From Promethearchaeota archaeon (GTDB lineage Archaea > Asgardarchaeota > Lokiarchaeia > Sigynarchaeales > SOKP01): a stretch of 7,390 nucleotides of DNA. Location of the stretch: contig JAGXNZ010000069.1 in NCBI GenBank assembly GCA_019894655.1, positions 1 through 7,390 on the forward strand, in the 5' to 3' direction. A program made the translations under genes and the position numbers. Shown here piece after piece: positions 95 through 7,365 of the stretch. Numbering within the stretch: the first letter of the stretch is position 1; the number at the start of each line of letters is the position of its first letter. Below the pieces are notes generated by a model. That model saw nothing but the letters and a program-made list of their open reading frames with translations, searched no databases and was not told the DNA's origin.

Positions 95-1111
95 TTATTT
101 CTCTCTCCACTCAGTTGAGCATTCTCCACAACGATACTTTTTTCCGTAAATGCGGGGATAGTCTAAAATTATATTGCTTTTATCAATACTCTCGTGGATC
201 ATCTTTTTATCTTCGATACCACACTTAGGGCATTTTCTACGGCTATCAGATTTTTCTATGGTTAAGATTGACTCATCACTAGAACCAGGAATTCCTGGAC
301 CTGCGCTAGAAGCACTGGATTCCTTAAGTTGAGCAATATCAGCTTTTATCTCATCCGCAGTTACTTCCTTTACCTCTGATTTAAATTCGGGTTGAATTTC
401 TGCTGCTTCTTTATCGGCTTCAGTTTCAGGTTCTAATATGGATTCAGCTCTTAATTGAACTGCATCTGATTCTTTGTAATCTACACCACGATCTATTGCT
501 GCTAAGAATTCAGCATCGTCTCCCTCTTCGAATATTTTCTCATTTTGCGCTCCTGCTCTTTCTGCGTCAATATTACGTGCCCATTGACCGGCTTTAACTT
601 TCTCTTTAACATTGCAAGTTCTTCCTTGCCATATATATACTTTATTACCTAAATCAGCAACGTAACAATCTTCAGAATCTAACGAATCTTTGGAAAAAGG
701 AACTTGAATCATTTTCATGGAATTAATACCTTCAAATTCTTCGGCCGAAACGCGGTAGAGAATATTGCTCCAATCTTCAAATCCTGCCCAATCCCCGGTA
801 GATACATCTTTTAGCAGTGTTTTTGCGTAATTTTTTTCAACAACCTTCATCGCACCCATCGAACTTATTATTTTCATAAAATCGGGAGTTTCTTGGTTTT
901 CATCTACCGTAATAATTTTAGCAGCTCCACCTCTTTGCTGGTCTAAAGTTCGAGCTTGAGCTGCTCCTGCTGTTTTTTCATCTACGCTACATTTGCTCCC
1001 AATCCACACATATATTGTATTACCATTATCTAGAACGTAAACATCTCCAGTAGAAAATATTGGTTTTGAAATTTCCTTAAGATTACCTTGTTCTACTAAA
1101 TGTAAAATCAA
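95..1111 (-). CDS. Two-repeat gelsolin-like protein with C-terminal zinc ribbon
   Basis: Probable actin-binding protein of the Asgard two-domain gelsolin type (338 residues). Repeat 1 (about 8-83) has the gelsolin core with GDVYVLDNG, IYVWIG and an A-rich helix; repeat 2 (about 118-208) has YVADLG, VYIWQG and a matching helix. The usual type II calcium ligands are present in repeat 1 (G22-D23, E45); in repeat 2 the Gly-Asp is E147-D148, with E170 kept. An acidic, low-complexity linker (about 211-285) leads to a zinc ribbon (C294, C297, C328, C331, then W and RE), resembling transcription-factor-S or Rpb9-type ribbons in spacing. Asgard gelsolins are known to regulate archaeal actin filaments; that this one does so is inferred. 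The start is TTG: an in-frame TGA lies three codons upstream and the next Met is about residue 79, inside repeat 1. There is no signal peptide or membrane segment, so it is probably cytoplasmic. Confidence 0.9.
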   Translation of the reverse strand: MILHLVEQGNLKEISKPIFSTGDVYVLDNGNTIYVWIGSKCSVDEKTAGAAQARTLDQQRGGAAKIITVDENQETPDFMKIISSMGAMKVVEKNYAKTLLKDVSTGDWAGFEDWSNILYRVSAEEFEGINSMKMIQVPFSKDSLDSEDCYVADLGNKVYIWQGRTCNVKEKVKAGQWARNIDAERAGAQNEKIFEEGDDAEFLAAIDRGVDYKESDAVQLRAESILEPETEADKEAAEIQPEFKSEVKEVTADEIKADIAQLKESSASSAGPGIPGSSDESILTIEKSDSRRKCPKCGIEDKKMIHESIDKSNIILDYPRIYGKKYRCGECSTEWREK

Positions 1112-1136
1112 CTTTTTTCAACACTTTTTTTAGAAA

Positions 1137-1156
1137 TTTTTATATTAATTATAAAA
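1137..1156 (-). promoter_or_regulatory. TATA-like boxes of gelsolin-like gene
   Basis: On the minus strand two TATA-like elements occur: TTTTATAA (1149-1156) and TATAAAA (1137-1143). With the usual archaeal spacing of about 27 bases to the transcription start, the first gives a leader of about 14 bases. The second would start the RNA almost on the TTG codon, making it leaderless. No Shine-Dalgarno motif precedes the TTG, which fits either case. The 118-base gap to the aminotransferase gene suggests separate transcription. Confidence 0.4.
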
Positions 1157-1229
1157 GTTAATCTTTTTAATTGCATGTAAAAACAAACAAAAGCAAATGG
1201 AGTGATATATAGAAAATATTAGAAATAAA

Positions 1230-2609
1230 TTAAAAATCTTCTAGTGCTTTGTCAATTCTACTTACGAATTCTGGAATCTTTTTTATATCAATTGAGCAGT
1301 AAGCTATTCTAATCCCATTGATATTATCATGTTGTTTTTCGATAGGAATTACGCCTACTTTATATTTTTTTAATAGATGATCCGCAAAGTCATTCGCTTT
1401 GATTACTTCTGGGTTTAAGTTAACAAATATAAAGAAACCTCCGGCATTAGAATCTACCGAAATGTTTTCATTTTTTATTTTCTTAAACTCAGCATTAATT
1501 TTTTCATATCTTTCTTTAAGAAGATTAATAACTTTTTCTCGTTTTTGTATCAGACCATCCATTCCAATATCGTCAAAGAGCTTAAGGACTAGGCTTTGGT
1601 AAAAATGGTTAGAATTTGAGATGGTAGTCCTAATTAAGCCAGAGAGTTTGTTATCGAGTTCGGCTTTTAAAGTTGTTAATTCTTGTGCGTTTTTAACCCA
1701 GTGAGGTTTTAATCCAATTGTAATGAATCCAATGCGCCCCCCATAAAGTAACAACTCTTTAGTAATTCCATCTAACTTAATTGGAATTATGTCCTCCTCT
1801 AGCTCGTGCAATGCGTAGAAGATCGAGCGATTAATGACTTCATTAGAAAAAACATAGGGTTCGTATGCGTCATCTACTAAAATTATGATCGGTTTAGAGA
1901 TATTTTTTTGTGCTTCTTTTAAAGCATCAAGTATTTCATCCAATTCTTCCTGATTAGGGATGTAACCCGTAGGATTATTAGGAAAACCCAGAATAAGAAT
2001 AATTTTTTCTTGAACCTTTGATATTTCATAAATAGCGTTTTTCATTCCAGTAATGTTGAAATTTTCACCTGATAATAAATCAAATGATTTAATTTTGGCT
2101 CCGATTAATTTCTCAACGATGTTATCATAATTTCCCCATCTCTTATTGGGTGATATAATATAATCTCCCGGATTTAGGAGCAGAGAACAGCACAAGAATA
2201 TCCCATTTGTTATTCCCGTAGTAACTACAGGTGTGGTAATATAGGATTCAAGTTTATTTAGTTTATCTTGCTCAAAATCTAAGGTATAACAAGATTTTTT
2301 GACTATCCAATTTTTCCAAGATTTTTTTAATTCCTCAAGCCCAGAAATCTGAGGATATGTTACAAATTCGTTCACGTTCAATTTAGTGTAATTTTTTATA
2401 TCTTCTAGATATAACGGAACCCATTCGGGAGCTCCTCCCTCAATAAAATCTTCCTCGAAACCAAAAGCAGCTCCGAGAGTGCCCATAATTTCTGCTTCCT
2501 TTTTTGCTCTTCCAGACCAATAAAAAACTCCTTGAGGCAAATAAATACGTTTTCCTAGTTCTGATAATGCATTATAGAGAGGGGTTTTTTTTACAACTTC
2601 AAACTCCAT
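1230..2609 (-). CDS. PLP-dependent aminotransferase, class I/II fold
   Basis: A fold-type I aminotransferase (459 residues) of the aspartate aminotransferase superfamily, transferring an amino group between an amino acid and a 2-oxo acid. The signature residues are in order: NNPTG (N212), DDAYE (D246/D247 and Y249, pyridine-nitrogen and ring contacts), TKE with K284 as the likely Schiff-base lysine, GGR with R292 (phosphate contact) and R434 as the likely substrate-carboxylate arginine. GITNGI (132-137) fits the cofactor phosphate-binding turn. It is longer than a typical 390-400-residue family member. Extra length lies in the first 80 residues, including a G/A-rich stretch (43-60), and around 100-125. 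The substrate cannot be read from the sequence, and neighbouring genes give no pathway. The ATG start is close to the expected N-terminus; no well-spaced ribosome site precedes it. It appears cytosolic, intact and unremarkable in composition. Confidence 0.92.
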   Translation of the reverse strand: MEFEVVKKTPLYNALSELGKRIYLPQGVFYWSGRAKKEAEIMGTLGAAFGFEEDFIEGGAPEWVPLYLEDIKNYTKLNVNEFVTYPQISGLEELKKSWKNWIVKKSCYTLDFEQDKLNKLESYITTPVVTTGITNGIFLCCSLLLNPGDYIISPNKRWGNYDNIVEKLIGAKIKSFDLLSGENFNITGMKNAIYEISKVQEKIILILGFPNNPTGYIPNQEELDEILDALKEAQKNISKPIIILVDDAYEPYVFSNEVINRSIFYALHELEEDIIPIKLDGITKELLLYGGRIGFITIGLKPHWVKNAQELTTLKAELDNKLSGLIRTTISNSNHFYQSLVLKLFDDIGMDGLIQKREKVINLLKERYEKINAEFKKIKNENISVDSNAGGFFIFVNLNPEVIKANDFADHLLKKYKVGVIPIEKQHDNINGIRIAYCSIDIKKIPEFVSRIDKALEDF

Positions 2610-2635
2610 GATATTTAATCTAATAATTCCTCGAA

Positions 2636-2666
2636 TAAAAATTTTTAAGCCGAATTATACAGGCTT
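2636..2666 (-). promoter_or_regulatory. Candidate promoter and operator of aminotransferase gene
   Basis: Minus-strand CTTAAAAATTTTTATT (2636-2649) looks like an A/T-rich archaeal BRE/TATA element and would start transcription within about 10 bases of the ATG. Overlapping its upstream edge is a 5-bp inverted repeat, AAGCC (2647-2651) and GGCTT (2662-2666), separated by 10 bases. That is the spacing of a dimeric repressor site one helical turn apart. The evidence is sequence pattern only. Confidence 0.3.
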
Positions 2667-2750
2667 TTATTAACCATTTAAGAATTTAGAGTATTCTGGA
2701 ACAAAATTCATAAAGAACGACCTAAATAGTGAATTTAAATAGAACTGAAG

Positions 2751-2770
2751 ATATATAATCTCATATAAAT
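2751..2770 (+). promoter_or_regulatory. TATA-like boxes for tail-anchored protein/LysE operon
   Basis: Two overlapping candidates, ATATATAAT (2751-2759) and ATATAAAT (2763-2770), lie 33-52 bases upstream of the ATG at 2803. Normal archaeal spacing predicts leaders of roughly 21 or 10 bases. There is no clear Shine-Dalgarno motif, so initiation is probably leader-poor. The rest of the 193-base divergent gap (2610-2802) holds no further gene that I can support. Confidence 0.4.
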
Positions 2771-2802
2771 AATGAAAATAATAAGAGAAGTCGCATCTAA
2801 AA

Positions 2803-3387
2803 ATGTCCGATAAAGAAGTTTCTGAACAGAATAAGGAAAAAGAAAACATTATAGTCAAAGGTTGGAACGAATTTGTTTCAAACATAACAAAGGGGTACAA
2901 TAATTTCCAGAAAAGTATTGAAGAAAGCACAAAGAAGAATACAGAATTGTGGAATCAGAATCAAGATAAGATTAATAAATTTTTTGATGATACTAAGGAA
3001 AATTGGGATGCCACTATGAAAGATTGGGGAACTGAAATAATAAAAAGACATAAAGAAAATGTAGATTCATGGGATGTTAATCTTGAAAAAATTAACGAGT
3101 TCTTTGAAAATAACCAACGATCGTGGGAGAATAAACTAAAAGAATGGAGTGCTGACTTCGAAAAAAGTCAAATAGAAACTAAAGAACAGTGGGAAGCAGG
3201 AAAAATGAAAATTAGCGAAGATATAAAGAATTGGCAAGATAAATCTAAAAGAGATTGGGAAAAAGGACTGAAGACTTTCCGACGCGAAATGATGAAAGGA
3301 TCGTATATGTTCTTGTTATTTATGATTCCTATATTGGTTGTGGTGTTTATAATCGTTGCTTTAATCACTCGATTATTTGATTATTAA
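2803..3387 (+). CDS. Tail-anchored helical protein with 40-residue tryptophan repeats
   Basis: I do not recognise a family. The 194-residue protein is a highly charged K/E/N/D-rich helix (about 1-165) followed by one hydrophobic segment (about 168-188) and a short tail, RLFDY. There is no N-terminal signal, so a tail-anchored topology with the helix in the cytoplasm is likely. Tryptophans occur at 21, 50, 68, 75, 90, 108, 115, 130, 144 and 152. W50/W68/W75 and W90/W108/W115 are exactly 40 residues apart and W130 continues the series; each unit also carries KI at +6/+7, and the first two carry FF at +10/+11. On an ideal helix these residues fall on one face, as in a coiled-coil core or a membrane-lying stripe. 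It probably shares an operon with the exporter 26 bases downstream. Possible roles are membrane scaffold, tether or envelope-stress protein; none can be proved here. Confidence 0.85.
   Translation: MSDKEVSEQNKEKENIIVKGWNEFVSNITKGYNNFQKSIEESTKKNTELWNQNQDKINKFFDDTKENWDATMKDWGTEIIKRHKENVDSWDVNLEKINEFFENNQRSWENKLKEWSADFEKSQIETKEQWEAGKMKISEDIKNWQDKSKRDWEKGLKTFRREMMKGSYMFLLFMIPILVVVFIIVALITRLFDY
2950..3300 (+). repeat. Protein-level 40-residue (120-base) repeats, three copies
   Basis: Codons 50-89, 90-129 and 130-166 of the tail-anchored protein form two complete units and one diverged unit. Units 1 and 2 share about 12 of 40 residues, centred on W, KIN, FF, W, K and W at the same offsets. Unit 3 keeps W and KI, then drifts: its next two tryptophans are 8 rather than 7 apart and come earlier. 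The DNA itself is well diverged, so the duplication is old and the register appears selected. Confidence 0.75.
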
Positions 3388-3413
3388 ACTTTCAGTTAAG
3401 GCCTGTTTGAGAC

Positions 3414-4073
3414 ATGTTAGAAATATTTTTCCTTTCCTTTCTTGTTGCTCTTACTGGAGCTTTATCTCCAGGACCACTTTTAACCTTCACAATTTATAAG
3501 TCACTAAAACAAAAAAGAGGGTATATGGCATCGATTTATATTCTTTTAGGACATGCTACTATCGAGTTTACTTTAATAATAGCCTTACTTGCTGGAGCTT
3601 CCTTGATTTTTCAAAATATTATCTTTTTAACTTTAGTCGGATTTATAGGGGGAATGTTCTTGGTTATCTATGGAATTTTTGCAATAAGGGGGGTTTTAAA
3701 ATCTGATTTTGAAACTAGTTTCACTTTCGAGAAGAATACAGTAAAAGGATATAAAGGGAATAGTTATATAGGCGGAATTTTAGTTAGTTTGTCGAACCCT
3801 TTTTGGACGTTTTGGTGGGCTGTGATAGGGCTCTCCTTGATGGTGAGTTTTGATATCACGCTTTTCATGCCTATAGAGATGCTATTATTCTTTATAGGAC
3901 ACGAGTTAGGAGATATAGTCTGGTATTTACCTATTTCTATATTCGTTTATTATGGCGGAAAATCCTTGAATCCAAGAATATACAAATATGTTTTGATAGT
4001 TTGTGGTGCTTTTATGATTATTTTTGGTATCTACCTTACCTTAAATATAGTTTTCAATCCGCCTACCATTTGA
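3414..4073 (+). CDS. LysE/RhtB-family amino-acid exporter
   Basis: A 219-residue integral membrane protein of the LysE/RhtB/CadD transporter superfamily, whose characterised members export amino acids or related small molecules by exchange with the membrane potential or protons. The N-terminal helix ends in the family motif SPGP (18-21), and a second family-like motif, GGILVSLSNPFWTFWW, lies at 120-135. About six hydrophobic segments are visible: 2-22, 40-62, 68-93, 118-145, 150-178 and 187-213. The length and topology match full-length members. The ATG start leads directly into the first helix, with only a weak purine stretch before it. It begins 26 bases after the tail-anchored protein gene, so co-transcription is likely. 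The substrate cannot be assigned. Nearby is an aminotransferase gene, but it is divergently transcribed, so a metabolic link is only a guess. Confidence 0.9.
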   Translation: MLEIFFLSFLVALTGALSPGPLLTFTIYKSLKQKRGYMASIYILLGHATIEFTLIIALLAGASLIFQNIIFLTLVGFIGGMFLVIYGIFAIRGVLKSDFETSFTFEKNTVKGYKGNSYIGGILVSLSNPFWTFWWAVIGLSLMVSFDITLFMPIEMLLFFIGHELGDIVWYLPISIFVYYGGKSLNPRIYKYVLIVCGAFMIIFGIYLTLNIVFNPPTI

Positions 4074-4141
4074 AAACCGCAGTTATTTATATTCTAATTT
4101 AACAAGCAAAAATACCCTAGTATCACATATATATAATTAGA

Positions 4142-4147
4142 TTTTTT
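4142..4147 (+). terminator. T6 tract after LysE-type gene
   Basis: TTTTTT lies about 70 bases beyond the exporter stop codon. It is part of a loose A/T-only inverted repeat (ATTTTTTGA at 4141-4149 with TCAAAAAAAAT at 4168-4178). Oligo-T is the usual archaeal termination signal, and this is the first good run after the gene. Confidence 0.35.
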
Positions 4148-4202
4148 GATAACTGAAAATTAAGAGCTCAAAAAAAATAAAGCATTTGCAAATATAAAAA
4201 GA

Positions 4203-4220
4203 AATTGCTTTAATTGCTAT
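4203..4220. repeat. Tandem 9-bp repeat upstream of zinc-knuckle gene
   Basis: AATTGCTTT and AATTGCTAT stand head to tail, matching at 8 of 9 positions. They sit just upstream of the predicted TATA box of the next gene, where an archaeal activator could bind. AAAGCA at 4179-4184 is also the reverse complement of TGCTTT at 4206-4211. The repeat is short and A/T-rich, so it may be chance. Confidence 0.25.
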
Positions 4221-4237
4221 ATCTTTGTGATATTTAA

Positions 4238-4252
4238 AATTTAAATTATAAA
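4238..4252 (+). promoter_or_regulatory. TATA-like box of zinc-knuckle gene
   Basis: AATTTAAATTATAAAA followed by GG lies centred about 26 bases before the ATG at 4272. Standard archaeal spacing would therefore start the RNA at or very near the start codon. The weak GGA at 4263-4265 could serve as a ribosome site if the leader is longer. The element supports separate transcription from the exporter gene. Confidence 0.4.
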
Positions 4253-4271
4253 AGGAATCACCGGATAAATT

Positions 4272-5138
4272 ATGGACGATAAACAAATGATCAACTGTCC
4301 TGTATGCAGGGTGAAATTCATCCCCAGAACATTTTACCCAGATGAAGCCATTTTTTCTACTCATGACGGGAAAAAATTATCCGGATTTAATGGATACATT
4401 AGTTCAAAGACAGTAAAACCTCCAGAAGTGATCTTAAGCTCTTGGGTAACTTACTGCCCTTCATGTAATTACATTTTACGCTTTGTTAAAGAAATAGTAC
4501 GAAAAGAAAAAATCGTTACTCAACAGTCGAGTCCATCGGAAGTCAGCGAAAAATATAATAGCTATTATTACGGGTTTCCATACGGAGACTATTCACAACA
4601 CTTAAAGGAAATAATAACTAAAGTAAAAAATAAAATAGAAAACGAACTTAAAGAATTGAATTTTAACATATGGGAAGACTTATACGAAATTGACGATAAC
4701 TTTAAGTTCCTCGTGAGGTTTTTTGCTAGTTTAGAAAATTATTGCAACCGTAATTTGGGAATGGTAAATGACAAAAACATGGCAAATAAAATAAAAAAGT
4801 TAAATTTGCCAAAAGAAATAGAGATACCTATGTTACAGCTTAACAATATCAAGGATGGTATTGTGAAAGGAGATTATGAATTATCGAGTGATGATGAAGA
4901 TAATATTGACAATATATTAGTAGTGTTTGTTTTACATCTAATTAGTAAACACATCCAACCACTCATCGATAAAAAACAATTGGAAAAAGGATATGAATTC
5001 ATCAAATTTGAAGATTTTGAACTTCAAATCAAATCATACTTAGGTAACTATCTCTATACAAACTTCAACAACGACCCAAACTCAGCTAAACAAATTCGAC
5101 TATTTTTAAGCGAACTCTATAAGGAAATTGATGTTTAG
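4272..5138 (+). CDS. Zinc-knuckle protein, possibly DUF2225-like
   Basis: A 288-residue soluble protein. Its N-terminus carries two CPxC knuckles about 50 residues apart (C9/C12 and C62/C65), which can form a single zinc-ribbon-like site. The layout, CPVC followed by K-F, a long polar stretch and then W-V-T-Y-C-P-S-C, resembles the uncharacterised DUF2225 family of bacteria, but I cannot confirm membership by eye. A Y/G-rich linker (about 95-107) leads to a helical C-terminal region (108-288) with an acidic patch (SSDDEDNID, 205-213). There is no signal peptide or membrane segment. The ATG fits the knuckle closely, since only eight residues precede C9. It converges with the RING-finger gene. 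Function is unknown; a zinc-dependent nucleic-acid or protein-binding role is possible. Confidence 0.85.
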   Translation: MDDKQMINCPVCRVKFIPRTFYPDEAIFSTHDGKKLSGFNGYISSKTVKPPEVILSSWVTYCPSCNYILRFVKEIVRKEKIVTQQSSPSEVSEKYNSYYYGFPYGDYSQHLKEIITKVKNKIENELKELNFNIWEDLYEIDDNFKFLVRFFASLENYCNRNLGMVNDKNMANKIKKLNLPKEIEIPMLQLNNIKDGIVKGDYELSSDDEDNIDNILVVFVLHLISKHIQPLIDKKQLEKGYEFIKFEDFELQIKSYLGNYLYTNFNNDPNSAKQIRLFLSELYKEIDV

Positions 5139-5153
5139 CGTCGTTTAACCTTT

Positions 5154-5158
5154 ATTTT
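5154..5158 (+). terminator. T5 tract after zinc-knuckle gene
   Basis: A TTTATTTTT stretch lies about 15 bases past the stop codon of the plus-strand gene and is a plausible archaeal termination signal. On the opposite strand, five T at 5296-5300 serve the same purpose for the converging gene. The two would make the gap bidirectionally terminated. Confidence 0.3.
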
Positions 5159-5209
5159 TGCCGTTAATTGTTGGCTTGTATATTTCGTACATTGTCATTC
5201 TTATTATCA

Positions 5210-5265
5210 ATTCTCGAACCAAGCATTGATTCTATATATAGATTCAGATATATCAGTTCGAGGTC
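5210..5265. other. Imperfect long stem-loop in convergent intergenic gap
   Basis: CTCGAAC (5213-5219) and GTTCGAG (5256-5262) are perfect inverted repeats, extendable to ten pairs in RNA with two G-U pairs. Inside them TGATTCTATATATAGATTCA (5227-5246) is a palindrome with one mismatched pair, containing a perfect 12-bp core at 5231-5242. The result is a two-tier hairpin between the 3' ends of two converging genes. It may be a 3'-end structure, a protein-binding palindrome or a remnant. It is not a tRNA: the GTTCGAG is not flanked by a T-arm stem. Confidence 0.45.
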
Positions 5266-5295
5266 AAGAAGTATCTGATTTTATCAAATTCGAAG

Positions 5296-5300
5296 AAAAA
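5296..5300 (-). terminator. T5 tract after RING-finger gene
   Basis: On the minus strand, five T follow the stop codon of the RING-finger gene by about 30 bases (ATTTTTC). This is a plausible archaeal oligo-T terminator with no convincing hairpin immediately before it. Confidence 0.3.
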
Positions 5301-5329
5301 TAGAATGGTAATTACGGATCACATCTTTG

Positions 5330-6556
5330 TTATTCGCTCTCAAATATCTTCAAATTTGGGTCTAAAAAGTTATTTTGGCACATAGGACATGAATTATGTT
5401 TAAAAAGCCAGTCTGCTACGCACAAGTAATGGTATGTACTCCCACAAAAAGGACAAGTAATCAGCTTATCTTTAACGAAGTTTATATATTTATGGCATAC
5501 CGTACACTGGACGTTAGATATTGAGACGCCTTGCCTTATTTTAACTTTATTAGTTAAAATTTCTTCTAATTTTGAACGTTCGAGTTCATAAAGGCCTAAG
5601 CTTGAGGTAATTTGATTTGTTTTTGAGGTAATTTCGGATATTCGTTCTTTTAGTTCATCCTCTGATAATCTGGTTGCTAAAAATGATGATAACGCAAAAT
5701 TAAAGGGTAATCCTTCGAAATTTTCTGTCTGCTTAGTTATTTCTGTTATTTCTGCGAATAAAATAGATTCCGTGTCTATTAAGTCCTTAAAACTTTTAAA
5801 AATTTTATTCATTAAGACAGTTAATAAAAAGGAAAGCTGATTTTTCTTGCGATTAAAGTTATCTTCCCAATGTTTTATAGTGGCATAGATATCAATGTCG
5901 CTTTCTTTATACGCATCTAACTTGTTGTACACTTCAGTTTTAATTTCGTCTAATTTTAATTTATAATTACTTAGAAGGTCTCTAATTTGTTTTAATTGAG
6001 GTAATTCTTCTTTAATTATCATGGAAGTCTCATTTTCGTAAGAGTTTATCATTTTATTTACCTCGGCAATCTTAGTGTCCACGAAACTTCTTACATCTAC
6101 CCGAAAACTCTCGTCCTTAATGTTATTCAAATAATTTACATACTCTTCTTTACGTCGAATTACCTCAGAAATAATATTTGCTAGCGTTTTCTTTAGATTT
6201 GCGGTAATGTTTGTATAGGGTTTTATTATTATATCAAAATTGATTATCCAAGTATCGATTTCGTCTATTTTTGCTGCGAAATCATCAACTTTATCGTAAT
6301 TTAAATTAATTATTTTTACAAATTCCTCGGGATCGCTTATGTCATTTATCCCTCCCTGAAATTGTTTATCTAAACCCTTAAAATATAAATCGACTATTTT
6401 AGGGAGAATTTCTGTAATTTTCTGAGACATTATACTCTCTAAATTTAGTTTTCCAATTCCATGACCGTTTAAATCGTATTTTTGATCTAACTCTTCTATT
6501 TCTTGAAAAGTCTCTCCTAATATATCTTTGATTAACTCAATAACAACTGGACGCAT
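5330..6556 (-). CDS. Helical/coiled-coil protein with C-terminal RING-like zinc finger
   Basis: The 408-residue frame is almost entirely helical (about 1-340), with K/E/I/L-rich stretches of coiled-coil character, and ends in a binuclear zinc finger. The ligands are C351, C354, C368, C371, H376, C379, C390 and C393 (C4HC3), with W383 in the usual position before CPMC. The CGSTYHYLC...WLFKHNSCPMC stretch closely resembles RING-H2 fingers, whose common role is to recruit a ubiquitin-conjugating enzyme. Asgard archaea are known to carry ubiquitin, E1, E2 and RING-like components, so an E3-like function is a reasonable inference, but no E2 or ubiquitin gene is in this window. The listed ATG is preceded directly by ten A and has no ribosome site. 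It overlaps the upstream gene by 25 bases in the -1 frame, so it may really be the second half of one longer protein. Coiled coil plus C-terminal RING recalls Bre1-type ligases in layout only. Confidence 0.85.
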   Translation of the reverse strand: MRPVVIELIKDILGETFQEIEELDQKYDLNGHGIGKLNLESIMSQKITEILPKIVDLYFKGLDKQFQGGINDISDPEEFVKIINLNYDKVDDFAAKIDEIDTWIINFDIIIKPYTNITANLKKTLANIISEVIRRKEEYVNYLNNIKDESFRVDVRSFVDTKIAEVNKMINSYENETSMIIKEELPQLKQIRDLLSNYKLKLDEIKTEVYNKLDAYKESDIDIYATIKHWEDNFNRKKNQLSFLLTVLMNKIFKSFKDLIDTESILFAEITEITKQTENFEGLPFNFALSSFLATRLSEDELKERISEITSKTNQITSSLGLYELERSKLEEILTNKVKIRQGVSISNVQCTVCHKYINFVKDKLITCPFCGSTYHYLCVADWLFKHNSCPMCQNNFLDPNLKIFESE

Positions 6557-7365
6557 TTTTTTTTTAAATTCTCAATTGTTTCTTTCCTTTCCAAGACGTT
6601 TACGAACTTATCCCCCTCATATTCTTCAAATATCTCATTATAATAGAACAAATATATGAAATCGTTATAAATCGCTGTCTTGTCGTCAAATTTGCTTAAG
6701 AAAAAATTAAGCAACTCGTTAAAATGAAAGGATAGCATAACATCTTTACGAGATTTAATTTTTTTAGTTGATTTAGCATCGAATAAGCTTTGTAAATAAG
6801 CTTTCAGTTCTTCTATTTCTTCCCATATCCCTAAATTGCTCGGGATATCGTTTAATTTAAAGCCCAGATTTTTAATTTTATTTGCTTCAATCCATAAATA
6901 TGTATTGTTGTTGTAGAGGTTATCTGTCTTTTGAATGTTTTTCTCGAGAATAGGAGTAAATTCATTAATGTCAGTTTGTAATTCTTTACTAATTTTTAAA
7001 AAATCATCTAGAAATTTGTTATTCTTTATGATTCGTTTAACATTTCTCCCATTAGAATTTAAATTTGTTAAGTTGCTTGAGACCAGCTTTAATTCGCTTA
7101 TGATTTCCTGTTTCAACGCGATATAATCTCTTTTTGAACCAGAAAATAAGTAATTTTCACTAAAGCTTTTAATCTCCTTGTAATACTTTAAATATAACTT
7201 AAAAACATCAATCTTGAATTCAGTTATAAGAAATTCGTCGATTTCTTGCGAATCAACTTTCTCAGATTTAATGATTGTTATTTTTTTTTTCAAGTTTAAA
7301 ATTTCATTTTTACTGTATCCTTTTACCTCTCTGTAACCTTCAAAAGAATTGTTGATCAGACGCAA
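6532..7365 (-). CDS. Helical protein of unknown function, upstream partner of RING gene
   Basis: I do not recognise a family. The 277-residue frame is rich in K, E, N, L, I and F, and mostly helical. It lacks cysteine clusters, a signal peptide and membrane segments. Its single Cys lies in the last seven residues (CVQLLLS), which are read only because the frame continues past an A10 run. The start is TTG, supported by an excellent ribosome site, AAGGTGA, six bases upstream. The gene overlaps the RING-finger gene by 25 bases, and a shift at A10 would join LKKK directly to MRPVVIELIKD, continuing a helix smoothly. A long helical domain followed by a C-terminal RING is the layout of Vps18/Vps11-type tethers without the propeller, and of Bre1, but no residue-level similarity is claimed. 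It could be an independent subunit translated in step with the RING protein, or the N-terminal half of that protein. Confidence 0.8.
   Translation of the reverse strand: MRLINNSFEGYREVKGYSKNEILNLKKKITIIKSEKVDSQEIDEFLITEFKIDVFKLYLKYYKEIKSFSENYLFSGSKRDYIALKQEIISELKLVSSNLTNLNSNGRNVKRIIKNNKFLDDFLKISKELQTDINEFTPILEKNIQKTDNLYNNNTYLWIEANKIKNLGFKLNDIPSNLGIWEEIEELKAYLQSLFDAKSTKKIKSRKDVMLSFHFNELLNFFLSKFDDKTAIYNDFIYLFYYNEIFEEYEGDKFVNVLERKETIENLKKKCVQLLLS
6556..6565 (-). other. A10 slippery run at the gene overlap
   Basis: On the minus strand, TTT is followed by ten A and then TGCG. The upstream gene reads TTA AAA AAA AAA TGC and stops seven codons after the lysines. The downstream gene uses the last A as the first base of its ATG. 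Slippage back by one base, or one added A in the transcript, fuses the two reading frames. Long A runs are known sites of both ribosomal -1 shifting and RNA-polymerase slippage, and also of sequencing or assembly errors. Confidence 0.6.

Follow-up and report, generated by a model that had tools for sequence, protein, structure and literature searches.

Gene content of the window

The window (the whole stretch of 7,390 nucleotides that was analysed) has its nearest DNA relatives among Lokiarchaeota MAGs, at ~84-89% identity in the longer matches. The block at positions 95-7365 contains the genes for a gelsolin-repeat protein, an aminotransferase, a helical protein of 194 aa that has a single hydrophobic stretch in its C-terminal part, a LysE-type transporter and a RING finger protein; other Lokiarchaeal loci, L005 and L010 among them, show the same order from gelsolin to RING. 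The gelsolin-repeat protein (95-1111, minus strand) matches PF00626 in two stretches (E 1.1e-28) and carries paired CxxC motifs at the C-terminus, and its gene has a TTG start at a position where relatives have TTG or ATG. A 288-aa protein, also with paired CxxC motifs and with no Pfam family above cut-off, is encoded at 4272-5138 on the plus strand, convergent with the RING gene. It is present in the loci of nearer relatives, at 58-91% identity along most of the protein, and has no match at E 1e-8 in L018-L023, L025 and L026.

The RING gene appears as two overlapping open reading frames that meet at a run of ten A:

7365-6532, minus strand: putative N-terminal part of the gene, 277 codons, with a TTG start preceded by AAGGTGA; residues 1-270 correspond to residues 1-270 of the homologue P0001
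6556..6565, minus strand: A10 tract (ten T on the plus strand), proposed site of frame loss
6532-6556, minus strand: overlap of the 277- and 408-codon frames, 25 bases, a likely by-product of the frame loss
6556-5330, minus strand: putative C-terminal part of the same gene, 408 codons in the -1 frame, with long helices and a C4HC3 RING
5375..5509, minus strand: RING finger, residues 350-394 of the 408-codon frame

An earlier, sequence-only reading had drawn attention to the ten-A run, the two frames overlapping in -1 and the missing ribosome site of the second frame, all of which we confirmed on the sequence. The AAGGTGA before the TTG start of the 277-codon frame is a plausible ribosome site, and this frame ends in LKKKCVQLLLS followed by a stop, the last 7 residues (CVQLLLS) being an out-of-frame tail. 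The inner ATG of the 408-codon frame consists of the last A of the tract plus TG. There is no clear Shine-Dalgarno-like stretch in the 20 bases preceding this ATG, the frame is closed by a TGA 5 codons upstream of it, and it corresponds to Met271 of P0001, a 678-residue homologue; this ATG is unlikely to serve as an independent start. At a second ten-A tract of the same gene (7281-7290), the frame is intact.

Relatives encode one unbroken chain

A search with the joined 678-residue protein as the query yielded 387 homologues, the best 120 of which were listed. One of these, P0001, is a single 678-residue chain that is 99% identical to the joined window protein, with differences at 7 of 678 positions. 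The full-length homologues listed are 59-99% identical, with similarity on both sides of the junction and the same RING. Pooling of overlapping lists (the best 120 of 387, 14 of 14 and the best 120 of 422) gave 140 distinct proteins; 117 of these are full length compared with P0001. The other 23 are partial, and not one of them terminates in the tail found in the window. The proposal of the sequence-only reading that the two frames could be one split 678-residue RING protein, for which it had recommended exactly such a search for single-gene homologues, is thereby supported. A few of the listed homologues are named 'RING finger domain-containing protein' or 'E3 ubiquitin protein ligase' in their source; the full-length homologue P0007 is named there 'tRNA isopentenyl-2-thiomethyl-A-37 hydroxylase MiaE', probably a misannotation.

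We also searched 65 genomes around G001 with the C half as the query, taking as complete any open frame of 662-727 codons around the match. A complete copy, in each case one open frame without an inner stop, was found in 54 genomes, and none of these 54 showed a frame break at this place. Four of the 65 contain only pieces running to contig ends (G051, G057, G009 and G013), and no clear copy was detected in the remaining seven (G019, G024, G037, G053, G055, G061 and G063). A second, short match, at a contig start in G056, contains one TAA. Given that the sets of copies used for the tract and codon counts below admit only long open frames, this genome search provides the unbiased count.

The A tract in relatives

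For the comparison of the tract, we used 67 of 105 loci, many of the others being repeats of the same genes or loci with a small RING frame. The gene was obtained from 66 of the 67 (the exception was the contig-end fragment L048), and removal of duplicates left 52 copies, including that in L015, which is cut by the contig start. The contig-end pieces L014 and L024 were left out, as was L027, where 26 residues matched within a frame of 39 codons and the genome of which also carries a complete copy.

In the five copies nearest at the DNA level, the sequence at the site is A11 (L001, L002 and L005), A9G (L004) or A5TA5 (L003). Counting the run in related genomes, as had been suggested, thus shows it to be one base longer in three of the five and interrupted by G or T in two. 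In the other 47 of the 52 distinct copies, the longest A run within the 20 codons around the site is at most 9 and, in 37 of the 47, only 4-6; altogether, 39 of the 52, L003 included, have no A run of 7 or more there. Such variation in length, interruption and frequent absence indicate that the tract is not a kept signal; rather, it seems to be a side effect of encoding Leu-Lys-Lys-Lys-Met in DNA this rich in AT. AAA accounts for 77% of the Lys codons in 53 complete copies of the family, and, from this usage, any Leu-Lys-Lys-Lys-Met has a probability of ~28% of being encoded with an 11-A tract. A tract of at least 9 A occurs somewhere in the gene in 22 of the 53 complete copies, and intact copies, in a set that admits only unbroken frames, include in-frame tracts of 11, 12 and 16 A. 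The 16-A tract lies inside the intact RING gene of L008.

Selection and predicted structure across the junction

Both halves of the window gene are under purifying selection, much as in the intact relatives: compared with five near relatives, dN/dS is 0.23-0.36 in the N half and 0.11-0.13 in the C half, and the values among those five relatives are 0.24-0.33 and 0.07-0.24, respectively. The window reaches its highest N-half value, 0.36, in the comparison with L002, and this slightly exceeds the values that the relatives give among themselves. Residues 268-271, at the junction, lie inside one predicted helix (257-282), so that truncation at the tract would cut this helix.

The RING finger and its possible function

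The eight zinc ligands (C621, C624, C638, C641, H646, C649, C660 and C663 in P0001 numbering) are invariant in 68 aligned sequences and follow the cross-brace order of a RING fold, in the C4HC3 arrangement; zf-RING_2 scores 26.9 bits in the C half of the window gene, just under the cut-off of 27.3. The protein is probably E3-like. The ligand order differs from that of RING-H2 E3 ligases such as RNF165/Arkadia (PDB 5ulk, 7p2k), and the helical body shows no clear match. Active E3s usually carry a basic 'linchpin' residue after the last Cys; this position is Gln in both the window protein and P0001. A literature search found no publication on a Lokiarchaeota RING E3 ligase together with gelsolin.

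A second, small frame (~77-170 codons), with a RING 35-61% identical to that of the window gene, is present in at least 41 of the 65 genomes, at loci that include L035, L036, L037 and L108 (4575-4886, minus strand). In L108, the genes near the small RING frame include those for an alpha/beta hydrolase and for an oxidoreductase that contains a hydrogenase delta-subunit domain; among the six L108 frames tested, there was no ubiquitin-pathway match other than the RING.

Origin of the frame break

All complete relatives examined have a single frame, the break is, among them, private to this copy, and purifying selection acts on both of its halves. We therefore consider it very likely that the two frames are one Lokiarchaeal gene split by a one-base contraction of an A homopolymer. 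The intact gene would encode a mostly helical protein of ~678 residues with a C-terminal RING finger; a single base would have been lost from the long A tract, either in sequencing or assembly or by a recent slippage mutation, and, with the tract one base out of register, translation would stop 7 codons after the lysines. The sequence-only reading had named a recent indel and a homopolymer error as alternatives to recoding, and the single-chain homologues of ~678 residues favour these two.

The kind of contraction can be judged from its setting, and here our estimates are matters of judgement and not of computation. Long A tracts mutate readily, so a real variant of the strain is quite possible; we give a real recent slippage mutation in the lineage or strain roughly one chance in three, and consider a sequencing or assembly error more likely than not. 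The break, seen in one copy, sits at one of the two longest homopolymers of the window. None of the window's other five genes is interrupted; each can be aligned with relatives along its length in a single frame. With no second frame break, and with the ten-A tract at 7281-7290 in frame, a generally indel-prone assembly is not indicated, and the intact relatives with 11, 12 and 16 A indicate that such tracts can be assembled correctly. A survey of prokaryotic frame transitions expects sequencing error, and not a genuine indel, to lie behind single cases validated by BLASTp (Antonov et al., PMC3711429). The present break, being single, located at a homopolymer and validated by full-length homologues, belongs to that class.

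Programmed or selected recoding, by -1 frameshifting on A-AAA-AAA or by transcriptional slippage, would yield products of 277 and 678 residues in a set ratio. The frames do overlap in -1, and a permissive all-A heptamer of the X-XXY-YYZ type lies in the 0 frame within TTA AAA AAA AAA TGC, but extended runs of A are frequent in this AT-rich RING family and the frame transition is not conserved, the split being absent from all 54 genomes in which the copy is complete. The 106 bases of window RNA from the tract fold somewhat more stably than shuffled versions, with a z of -1.65 (13 of 200 shuffles were as good), but the downstream fold differs in the seven relatives folded of the 52 copies (z -1.26 to 1.28), and no conserved RNA stimulator was seen downstream of the tract in the window and these seven. 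Moreover, relatives keep the full chain, through the predicted helix that truncation would cut. The idea, raised in the sequence-only reading, that slippage is programmed and yields both products at a fixed ratio hence finds no support in the family, and we regard it as highly improbable. Even less probable, to the point of being negligible, is a pair of separate, translationally coupled genes: the frames overlap and an ATG stands at the junction, but the second frame has no clear ribosome site of its own, the Met is replaced by Ile in L008 and by Ala in L010, and complete relatives are single chains, with no separately encoded pair among them, which already refutes this arrangement family-wide.

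Slippage that is not programmed deserves somewhat more weight. If the ten-A tract is real and recent, unprogrammed slippage might restore some full-length protein, an unlikely case that forms part of the share given above to a real indel. Slippage on A/T runs has been reported to rescue indel mutants, and to occur with an enterobacterial polymerase on runs of at least 9 A or T; against this, poly(T) is said to induce slippage of the E. coli polymerase more easily than poly(A) does (PMC6260861). The C half shows no relaxed selection, as would fit a very recent break or rescue, but the same lack of decay is also predicted by an error. Very unlikely, in our estimate, is that the genome truly has ten A and that slippage of polymerase or ribosome produces a RING-less 277-residue protein together with a minority of full-length RING protein.

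Under the favoured reading, a one-base contraction in a single gene, the annotation should be corrected such that the 277- and 408-residue frames become one RING protein, and the break should not count as recoding.

Comparison with known systems

A comparable case is fucA1 of Saccharolobus solfataricus, which, according to PMC8211752, is the only -1 programmed case reported in archaeal cells, archaeal viruses adding others. If slippage were real in the window gene, it would be a second case of archaeal cellular recoding beside fucA1, and one from Asgard. The two genes share a split at an A tract, an overlap in -1 and full-length homologues elsewhere, a likeness that speaks for recoding. They differ in that fucA1 has measured products (its break is read through at ~5% in E. 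coli and ~10% in vitro), a putative stem-loop and tandem rare codons (PMC8211752), whereas the window gene is known from sequence, with no conserved element found. In the uncharacterised Lokiarchaeal RING proteins of ~678 residues (P0001-P0120), to which the joined window protein belongs in all likelihood, the chain is unbroken, and it is the break that sets the window copy apart.
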